A stretch of 64,000 bases of DNA, taken from Falsiroseomonas bella. Its GTDB lineage: Bacteria; Pseudomonadota; Alphaproteobacteria; Acetobacterales; Acetobacteraceae. Numbering within the stretch: position 1 is the first letter of the stretch; every line of letters starts with the position of its first letter. The DNA lies in NCBI RefSeq assembly GCF_003173615.1, contig NZ_QGNA01000002.1:744001-808000 (forward strand). The letters are read 5' to 3'. The notes below the pieces were generated by a model. It was not told the DNA's origin, ran no database searches, and saw only the letters and a program-made list of their open reading frames with translations. The position numbers and the translations under genes are program-made. This document shows, piece by piece, positions 3,887-5,738 of this stretch.

Positions 3887-4457
3887 GCGAGTCTGCCTCG
3901 CCCAGCCGCGCCCGAGTCGCGGAGTCCAGGCGCGTGCGGAAGGCGGCGAGCACCGGATGCGCCGCGGTGTCCTTGCGCCCGTAGCCAAGGTTGAAGCCCA
4001 GGTCGAAGTTGGGCGGGTTCACGCCCTGCGCGTGCTGCAGGATCGTCTCCAGCTTGTCGAGCCCCTTGGCGATCCGGCCTTCCGGCGTGCTGGCGCTCTC
4101 GTATTCCTCCCACAGCGCCAGGATGTCGGCCCGCTGGGCGGAGGGCAGGGTCATGGTCAGCGTCGCCAGCGCCTCGCGCTCGCGTGCTTCCTTCACGCCG
4201 GGCTGACGCGGCGTGGGAGCGGGAATATCGCCGGTGAAGGCCTCCGCCAGGTCATGCACCAGAACGATCTTCACCAGCCTGCCGGCATCCACGCCGAGCG
4301 CGGGGGCGAGCAGCATCGCCATCAGGGCCACGCGCCAGGTGTGCTCGGCGGTGCTCTCGGTGCGGCCGGTGCTGGTGCGGCTGTTGCGCAGCGTGTCCTT
4401 CAGCCGCTCCACCAGCGCCAGGAAGGCGATGGTGCCGTCGATCTCGGAATCGGTCAT
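3855..4457 (-). CDS. HD-domain hydrolase, HDDC2/YfbR-like 5'-nucleotidase
   Basis: The 200-residue protein matches the HDDC2/YfbR class of HD-domain 5'-deoxynucleotidases, which dephosphorylate nucleoside 5'-monophosphates using a divalent metal. Visible landmarks are SRTSTGRTESTAEHTWR (metal His in AEH, about 38-39), the HD pair in VLVHDLAEAFTGDI (about 68-78) and a downstream Lys/Asp-containing helix ending in KGLDKLETILQHAQG. The ATG is at a position consistent with the family N terminus (the short helix before LKDTLR). It reads convergently toward the esterase and divergently from the photolyase-like gene. Membership is firm; nucleotide specificity is inferred from family. Confidence 0.85.
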   Translation of the reverse strand: MTDSEIDGTIAFLALVERLKDTLRNSRTSTGRTESTAEHTWRVALMAMLLAPALGVDAGRLVKIVLVHDLAEAFTGDIPAPTPRQPGVKEAREREALATLTMTLPSAQRADILALWEEYESASTPEGRIAKGLDKLETILQHAQGVNPPNFDLGFNLGYGRKDTAAHPVLAAFRTRLDSATRARLGEADSPTLPGTPRPG

Positions 4458-4538
4458 GGGCACGATGATATGGTGTGCGCGCGTCACGATCCCAAGCAGG
4501 CCTTGCGGCCCGTCGCGGCGGCCCGATCTGCCGCGGCG

Positions 4539-5738
4539 ATGACGACCGAGACATTCCCTGCCGACCGGGCCGGCGCGCTGGCGCGCCTGGCGGACTTCGC
4601 CCCACGCATGGGCGGGCACTATGCCGCGGGCCGCAACACCGATCCCGGCCCCGGCACGCGCCGCGATGTCTCCCGCCTGTCGCCCGCTGTGCGACACCGG
4701 CTGGTGACGGAGGCCGAGCTGGTGGGGACCGCCTTGGCAGAGCATGGCGCGGCCGCATCCGAGAAGTTCATCCAGGAGGTCTTCTGGCGCAGCTACTGGA
4801 AAGGCTGGCTCGAGCAGCGTCCCGGCATATGGCACGACTATCGCCGCGACCTCGAACAGGACAGCGCGACGGTCGCGCGCAGCTCCGCCCTGCGCGACGC
4901 GCTGGAGCGCGCCGAGGCCGGCGGCACCGGCATCGCCTGCTTCGACGCCTGGGCGGAGGAACTGCGCGAGAGCGGCTGGCTGCACAACCACGTGCGCATG
5001 TGGTTCGCCAGCATCTGGATCTTCACGCTGGACCTGCCCTGGACGCTCGGCGCGGACTTCTTCCTGCGCCACCTGCTGGATGGCGACGCTGCGTCCAACA
5101 CGCTGTCCTGGCGCTGGGTCGCGGGGATGCAGACGCGCGGCAAGCACTATGTCGCGCGCGCCGAGAACATCCGCAAGCACACGCTGGGTCGCTTCGATCC
5201 GGCCGGTGCGCTCAACGAGAACGCGCTGCCGCTTGCCGCGCCATCGCCGCCCGCGCCGCGCCCGCTGCCGCGCGCCGACGCCCTGCCCAGCGGTCCTGTC
5301 GCGCTGCTGCTGCATGAGGACGATTTGCATCCCGATAGCCTGCTGCGACCCGGCGCGCCCATCGCCGCCATCGCCGGGATCGCCGTGCCGGAGGCCCGCT
5401 CGCCGCGCGGATGCGCGCCGCTGGTGGCGGACTACGCGCGTGCCGCGCTGCGCGACGGGCTGGACCGCGCATCGCGCCACTTCGGCGCCCCGGCCGTCAT
5501 GCTGGAGCCCGCCGATGTCGCGGGCTGGGCGCGTGGCCATGGCCTGCCTGTCGTGACGCCCTGGGCGCCGTTCGGCTGGACGGCGACGGCGCTGGAGGGC
5601 CTCGGCGTGAAGCTGCTGCGCCTGCGCCGCGACTGGGACGAGGCGTGCTGGCCGCTCGCGACGAAGGGCTTCTTTCCCTTCCGCGAGAACATCCCGGCGC
5701 TGATCGAACGCCTCCGGCCCCAGCCGCCTATGGCGTGA
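4539..5738 (+). CDS. Cryptochrome/photolyase FAD-binding-domain protein with apparently permuted domain order
   Basis: The 399-aa protein opens with a cryptochrome/photolyase FAD-binding fold: SRLSPAVRHRL (about 45-55), FIQEVFWRSYWKGWL (77-91), a GTGIACFDAW turn (129-138), GWLHNHVRMWFASIW (146-160), and DGDAASNTLSWRWVAG (181-196), which correspond to the photolyase FAD- and DNA-facing elements. A Pro/Ala-rich linker (225-252) leads to an alpha/beta segment (about 252-395, starting GPVALLLHEDDL) that looks like the antenna-type domain normally found at the N terminus. Canonical photolyases are 450-500 aa with the opposite order. DNA repair or blue-light sensing are both possible; neither is shown. 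Stop overlaps the convergent MBL gene by 11 bp. Confidence 0.8.
   Translation: MTTETFPADRAGALARLADFAPRMGGHYAAGRNTDPGPGTRRDVSRLSPAVRHRLVTEAELVGTALAEHGAAASEKFIQEVFWRSYWKGWLEQRPGIWHDYRRDLEQDSATVARSSALRDALERAEAGGTGIACFDAWAEELRESGWLHNHVRMWFASIWIFTLDLPWTLGADFFLRHLLDGDAASNTLSWRWVAGMQTRGKHYVARAENIRKHTLGRFDPAGALNENALPLAAPSPPAPRPLPRADALPSGPVALLLHEDDLHPDSLLRPGAPIAAIAGIAVPEARSPRGCAPLVADYARAALRDGLDRASRHFGAPAVMLEPADVAGWARGHGLPVVTPWAPFGWTATALEGLGVKLLRLRRDWDEACWPLATKGFFPFRENIPALIERLRPQPPMA

Follow-up and report, generated by a model that had tools for sequence, protein, structure and literature searches.

Results

The gene and its surroundings

The window, that is the whole stretch of 64,000 nucleotides analyzed here (G000:C7:744001-808000), lies in a genome of approximately 5.94 Mb from a Roseomonas-like bacterium. 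The gene under study (Table 1) translates without an internal stop, all four motifs quoted in the earlier note are present in the translation, and its product is probably a light-driven DNA-repair enzyme with two domains in reversed order. The only Pfam match is PF03441 (FAD_binding_7; E = 2.2e-24, 86.4 bits against a cut-off of 27), and the homologous helical region starts near residue 10 (position 4566). With phmmer, residues 3-205 pair with residues 197-396 of Escherichia coli PhrB, which leaves no space for an antenna domain at the N-terminus. The antenna domain PF00875 was not found in the protein nor, in a six-frame scan of the genome, at this locus, the single match of the genome being elsewhere. 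The C-terminal 172 residues scanned alone gave no Pfam match, the C-terminal half reached only E = 0.08 or worse against NCBIfam, and with the whole protein the NCBIfam photolyase models all scored far below their own cut-offs. The earlier note had read the protein as a FAD domain followed, after a Pro-rich linker, by an alpha/beta domain; the Pfam match (residues 77-224), the phmmer alignment and the predicted structure (alpha/beta domain at residues 254-392) bear this out, and the reversed domain order is real.

Table 1. Features of the window protein, in window coordinates, and of the fused genes from plasmids, in coordinates of each locus
Feature	Coordinates	Strand	Remarks
NewPHL-type photolyase gene, inverted domain order	4539..5738	+	399 aa
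FAD_binding_7 match, residues 77-224	4767..5210	+	Pfam, phmmer, model
E80, W83, R84 (PhrB E274, W277, R278)	4776..4790	+	unchanged in 79/79
GWLHNHVRM (146-154); N150, M154 (PhrB N341, M345)	4974..5000	+	79/79
W168 (PhrB W359)	5040..5042	+	79/79
DGDAASNTLSWRW (181-193); D181, D183, N187 (PhrB D372, D374, N378)	5079..5117	+	79/79
W191 (PhrB W382), W193 (PhrB W384)	within 5079..5117	+	79/79
Pro-rich linker, residues about 225-252	5211..5294	+	model: helix and strand absent between 214 and 254
C-terminal alpha/beta domain, antenna-type, residues 254-392	5298..5714	+	model, Foldseek, HHalign
Conserved C-terminal motif: R364, D367, W371-P372, A374, G377-F378-F379, P386	5628..5696	+	each invariant or at least 90%, 79 rows
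Fused FAD-first photolyases, Deinococcus and Persicobacter plasmids	L260:1309-2679, L262:1321-2739, L263:1309-2682, L264:1423-2535		

Upstream, a divergent gene encoding an HD-domain YfbR-like protein starts at 4457, and the gap of 81 bp between both genes (4458-4538) could be a shared promoter region. On the other side, a gene for an MBL-fold protein is convergent with the photolyase gene, and the genes for an HhH-GPD glycosylase and TerC lie beyond. When six neighbors in the window were searched by tblastn around the relatives found in named genomes (the best 80 of 592, with flanks of at most 4 kb and some loci ending early), the abhydrolase was present in 6 loci, the AlkA-like protein and EamA in 4 each, the HD and MBL proteins in 1 each, and TerC in none; of the four genes just described on both sides, all but TerC are common to Roseomonas AR75 and hardly beyond. 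The repair link that the earlier note drew from the HD, MBL and AlkA neighbors is not supported by these counts, and we rejected the idea of a repair cassette.

A canonical photolyase (C7:580776-582176) and a DPRP-type protein (C7:577306-577974), which we take to be FeS-BCP-like, are encoded in the same genome. These two genes lie within 5 kb (G000:C7:577306-582176), about 166 kb from the gene described here. The genome has no third match to PF03441, and therefore no DASH protein was detected.

Relatives, distribution and phylogeny

The same layout is present in 25 other genomes of the class (alignment A1, 26 rows) and, among the best 80 of 592 confirmed stretches kept from a scan of named genomes, in the 78 loci with clean ORFs; L069 and L099 also match and were dropped since the stretch had a stop or an X. 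Chance or an assembly artefact is ruled out by this recurrence. The 78 clean loci together with the window protein form alignment A2, in which PF03441 matches all 79 rows. The best 80 come from alpha- and gammaproteobacteria, Microbacteriaceae and one MAG labelled Eremiobacterota; the 79 rows span alpha- and gammaproteobacteria, Actinomycetota and one Vulcanimicrobiota MAG. In the C-terminal half 3 positions are invariant across A2, and 10 more are conserved in at least 90% of the rows. In five of the 79 members, the window protein not being one of them, Pfam also matches BLH_phosphatase weakly (best E = 3.6e-4).

Among the matches listed, the nearest named relative is that of Roseomonas sp. 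AR75 (84%). Within the genus, the gene was found in 12 of 14 other genomes and is absent from G001 and G009 (59 genomes searched); the copies of G005 and G014 are interrupted by contig ends. Of 289 genomes drawn evenly from the class, 21 (own genome included) gave a NewPHL-like match with an E value no higher than 8.7e-67, and 8 gave FAD-only relatives that are shorter (E = 1.9e-40 to 5.0e-29). One genome of the same family shows two separate matches, L020 (G020:C6:71165-71590) and G020:C9:38560-38688, which cover residues 6-152 and 242-287 and lie on different contigs; this looks like decay or misassembly. NewPHL-type genes also occur on large plasmids of Niveispirillum and Ruegeria TM1040 (NZ_CP025613.1 and NC_008043.1), hence the family is at least sometimes extrachromosomal. 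A viral origin of the gene was considered and rejected: tblastn found no relative encoded in 43 pattern stretches of viral contigs, and the 10 matches in phage records all have less than 60% identity, are confined to the FAD-domain part, and in no case cover 80% of the query.

A tree of the FAD domain was built from 90 rows: the window protein, 71 NewPHL-like rows (among which alternate rows of the 78 from named genomes, with L059 and L074 added), 10 canonical rows and 8 short FAD-only rows. The window protein falls inside a NewPHL-like clade of 72 rows (support 100/99), together with Methylobacterium sp. Leaf108 and rows of the Roseobacter group; the short FAD-only rows form a separate group (99/93) and the canonical rows a third one (100/100). 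The tree is midpoint-rooted for drawing only, its long branches meet, and eight rows have an unusual letter make-up. The labels NewPHL-like and SPL were assigned by length and layout to rows that do not include characterized reference sequences, and the kinship to the characterized proteins of D. shibae (A8LJA9) and M. mesophilicum (M7YZC8) is judged by rows of their groups.

The FAD domain and its active site

Active-site positions were transferred through the phmmer alignment with E. coli PhrB. The equivalents of PhrB E274, W277, R278, N341, R344, M345, W359, D372, D374, N378, W382 and W384 show no variation in A2 (79 of 79 rows) or in A1 (26 of 26 rows). E80, W83 and R84 presumably contact the lesion and the FAD, and N150 with M154 we take to be the pair typical of CPD photolyases. 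In eukaryotic (6-4) photolyases, both of these positions are occupied by His; given that N150 and M154 are found instead, in 79 of 79 rows, the pocket is of the CPD type. The DASH cryptochrome model TIGR02765 gives 57.3 bits against a cut-off of 317.05. PhrB R342 is replaced by H151 in all 79 rows.

Concerning electron transfer, W191 is presumably the first and W168 the second Trp of the chain; both are present in 79 of 79 rows, and the usual third Trp is missing. The window protein has Ala at the position of PhrB W306, and Trp is absent from the five commonest letters of A1 and A2 in this stretch, which aligns poorly. The chain contains three Cys (134, 292 and 370), of which C134 is the commonest, with Cys in 46 of the 79 rows; conservation across these rows reveals no set of four Fe-S cysteines in the protein. 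N187 we assume to be the asparagine that tunes the chemistry of FAD. This fits the statement, in PMC12083526, that such an asparagine is kept in NewPHL.

The predicted fold

AlphaFold2, run with alignment A2, predicts the whole protein with a pLDDT of 96.7 and a pTM of 0.93. The model has twelve helices up to residue 214, then the linker, and then an alpha/beta domain with strands at 254-259, 275-281, 319-321, 338-341 and 359-362 and helices between them. In Foldseek, the whole model matches photolyases, with alignments of about 220-260 columns; the best hit is 1owl (E = 4.5e-6), and 1dnp superposes with an rmsd of 3.2 over 229 columns. By title, no NewPHL structure appears among the 50 matches listed.

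Modelled alone, the C-terminal domain reached a pLDDT of 95.7. Its Foldseek ranks 1-22 are all chains of one protein, the class II photolyase of M. mazei (E = 2.0e-3 to 4.8e-2, TM 0.57-0.65 by query length); no match went down to E = 0.001. Further down, universal stress proteins are found at ranks 36 and 49 and the prokaryotic (6-4) photolyase 8a1h at rank 48, with unrelated folds among them. Judging from the fold, the target ranges being unlisted, the part of the M. mazei enzyme that is matched would be its alpha/beta domain.

Short FAD-only genes are followed by a separate alpha/beta gene

Short photolyase-like proteins (SPL) were reportedly described by Xu and co-workers in 2021, and are said to lack the alpha/beta domain. 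In the eight loci of the class that we fetched (L021 and L051-L057), an ORF of 131-166 residues of alpha/beta type follows the short FAD-only gene in all eight. It starts from -53 to +32 nt relative to the stop of the FAD gene, and five of these ORFs overlap it by 4 or 8 nt; only ATG was considered as a start, and the ORF of L054 likely starts further up. As a group, these eight downstream ORFs match canonical antenna domains (HHalign E = 3.8e-8, 34 domains). A search with alignment A4 in 299 genomes of the phylum gave one strong match, that of L054 itself (G062, 414 bits), the next among the matches listed having 178 bits.

The plasmid sample comprised 7 of the 129 records with any match, H11 (a second Persicobacter) being outside it, and five of the seven carry short-type FAD domains that lie outside the tree. 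The plasmid of Deinococcus QL22 has the split form with an ATGA-type overlap; in three other Deinococcus plasmids and one of Persicobacter the two parts are fused in one frame (Table 1). In the Persicobacter locus (L264), a frame beginning like a photolyase of canonical order follows directly after the fused gene, from 2528. The split form was thus observed in 9 of the 9 short-gene loci read (L021, L051-L057 and L261), and four further loci have the fused form. For picocyanobacteria, PMC9426592 describes both forms, in reverse order. From sequence alone, the short FAD-only gene and its downstream alpha/beta ORF would constitute a two-gene photolyase in reverse order.

The C-terminal domain is related to antenna domains through intermediates

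The C-terminal domain was compared by HHalign with two sets of canonical antenna domains (10 and 34 sequences); for the antenna set, as for the tree, 3 of 13 canonical loci without the antenna start motif were excluded. The scores were 28-31 over 95-118 columns, with probabilities of 27-44; column shuffles reached at most 22.3 (n = 100) and 21.6 (n = 200), and reversed profiles 12.5-14.5. Universal stress proteins (Usp) scored 21-22 over only 27-29 columns, and response regulators 12-13. The direct match is modest and, taken alone, suggestive.

A much stronger link was obtained with a bridge set of 13 alpha/beta domains that follow short-type FAD domains, either in a downstream gene or in the same chain. 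With E values that each stand for one comparison, this set matches the C-terminal domain over 125 columns (E = 4.3e-7 and 1.2e-6, scores 45.9 and 43.6) and the canonical antenna domain over 133 columns (E = 7.2e-10, score 62.4; the second comparison gave 7.9e-10). In 100 shuffles each, the maximum was 20.7 for the C-terminal domain and 22.4 for the antenna domain. The strength of the link to the C-terminal domain depends on the diversity of the bridge set, because with the first 8 members only it was weak (22.5 and 25.5), and the 5 more distant members raised it to the values given above. The downstream proteins also match Usp, with a probability of 65 over 37 columns for 8 members and of 75 over 50 columns for 13; in these profile comparisons the bridge does not separate antenna from Usp domains cleanly, the antenna match being the longer and stronger one. 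Through these intermediates, the profile evidence for the antenna kinship of the C-terminal domain becomes strong. The proposal of a rearranged photolyase with an antenna-type domain at its end thus gains support from AlphaFold2, from Foldseek of the domain alone and from HHalign through the bridge set; a standard order, or a C-terminal segment of another type, had been named in the earlier note as evidence to the contrary, and we found neither.

Discussion

The class known as NewPHL was reportedly described by Emmerich and co-workers in 2020 as having an inverted topology with an N-terminal catalytic domain; its C-terminal domain is said to seal the FAD site, and its activity to be specific for single strands. 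We assume a similar sealing role for the C-terminal domain of the window protein. In two papers, NewPHL, also named Phr7, is presented as a single-strand CPD photolyase of inverted topology (PMC13274461, PMC9426592), hence the rearrangement is not an undescribed one: it has a published precedent. PMC9426592 also reports, second-hand, that the members of D. shibae and M. mesophilicum are CPD photolyases on single-stranded DNA, and states that Phr7 of Prochlorococcus is devoid of the Fe-S cluster cysteines and closest to the reverse-order proteins Phr4 and Phr6; for the D. shibae protein, only a Trp dyad is mentioned in PMC8948257. The window protein looks like one more member of this class, which it matches on each testable point: the FAD domain is first, a short alpha/beta (Z) domain is last, the Fe-S cysteines are absent, a Trp dyad is present, and the taxa overlap in the alphaproteobacteria. 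No difference was found in the features that could be tested; H151 is common to the 79 rows, a comparison from which the characterized proteins are absent. Among the titles listed of papers on circularly permuted, inverted-topology or domain-swapped photolyases, none was on the FAD-first class.

According to PMC9426592, Phr6 (fused) and Phr4/Phr5 (two adjacent genes) of Synechococcus and Cyanobium also have the reverse domain order, and Phr4 and Phr6 carry four Fe-S cysteines each. The window protein shares the order of these proteins; in contrast with Phr4 and Phr6, it does not have the four-Cys set. The rows labelled SPL are nearest to the clade of the window protein in the midpoint-rooted tree, yet they are a separate group, and their alpha/beta domain is a separate downstream gene. 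With the class I/III CPD photolyases (E. coli PhrB, 1dnp; 4u63) the protein shares the fold of the FAD domain and the catalytic residues; however, the order is reversed, the third Trp is missing, and the linker and alpha/beta domain replace the sequence that follows the equivalent of PhrB 396. In structure, the C-terminal domain by itself is matched best by the class II CPD photolyase MmCPDII (2xry), in which the alpha/beta domain is, we assume, N-terminal.

Taken together, the product of the gene in this Roseomonas-like bacterium is very probably a photolyase of the NewPHL (Phr7) class that combines CPD repair, a Trp dyad, a relocated antenna-type domain and a probable preference for single-stranded DNA. 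The N-terminal helical domain would bind FAD, and light would excite the reduced FAD, from which an electron would pass to a cyclobutane pyrimidine dimer and split it. The dimer pocket would be lined by the equivalents of PhrB E274, W277, N341, M345 and W384, and FAD would be photoreduced through a chain of two Trp (W191 and W168), one fewer than usual. The C-terminal domain, taken as an antenna-related alpha/beta domain in a new position, would pack on the FAD domain and close the FAD site, and the preferred substrate would probably be single-stranded DNA. The present analysis provides the order of the domains, the predicted fold, the conservation of residues, the C-terminal homology and the clade, and we infer CPD repair, the single-strand preference and the function of the dyad by analogy with published work on other members.

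Other readings were weighed against this one. The protein could be a cryptochrome-like blue-light receptor that kept the fold and lost DNA repair, a loss that would be compatible with the sequence alone, and the canonical photolyase and the DPRP-type protein of the genome could make its repair activity redundant. We consider this very unlikely, given that the equivalents of the CPD-contacting residues are invariant in 79 of 79 rows, that none of the six neighbors tested is a conserved signalling gene, and that two members elsewhere are reported to repair CPDs in single-stranded DNA (PMC9426592). That a member of the NewPHL clade has turned into the ordinary double-strand CPD photolyase of the cell seems unlikely: the single-strand activity is known second-hand, for two distant members only (PMC9426592), but the genome already has a canonical-order photolyase with an antenna domain and no third PF03441 match such as DASH, and for this reason a single-strand role suits the window protein.

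Two further readings concern the C-terminal half. The likeness to antenna domains could reflect convergence on a Rossmann-like fold, the FAD domain being fused to a non-homologous alpha/beta domain; the C-terminal half has no Pfam match and no better than E = 0.08 in NCBIfam, the direct HHalign probability and the Foldseek E values (2e-3 at best) are modest, and the bridge set also matches Usp. Nevertheless, the matches of the bridge set to both domains are colinear, at scores (45.9 and 62.4) far above their shuffled controls, and Usp scores lower against the C-terminal domain over a much shorter stretch, which leaves convergence with a rather slim probability. In a G+C-rich window, where both strands carry numerous long frames, one might also imagine that a canonical photolyase was truncated and that the frame behind it is meaningless; this reading is refuted by the conservation of the C-terminal half in the 79 rows, from proteobacteria to Actinomycetota and the Vulcanimicrobiota MAG, and it also sits badly with the confident predicted fold of that domain, so that its probability is negligible.

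As a further NewPHL, from a Roseomonas-like genome, the protein is an ordinary member of its family, and the side finding on the short genes matters more. It is about an even chance that NewPHL, Phr6, Phr4/Phr5 and SPL form one branch with the antenna-type domain 3' of the FAD domain, in a fused gene or in a separate and often overlapping one; in this branch SPL would be two-subunit enzymes, and the order would have come about by gene fusion or fission and not by domain loss. If SPL proteins do pair with the product of a small adjacent gene, the argument that the whole family descends from such domain-poor proteins would have to be reconsidered.
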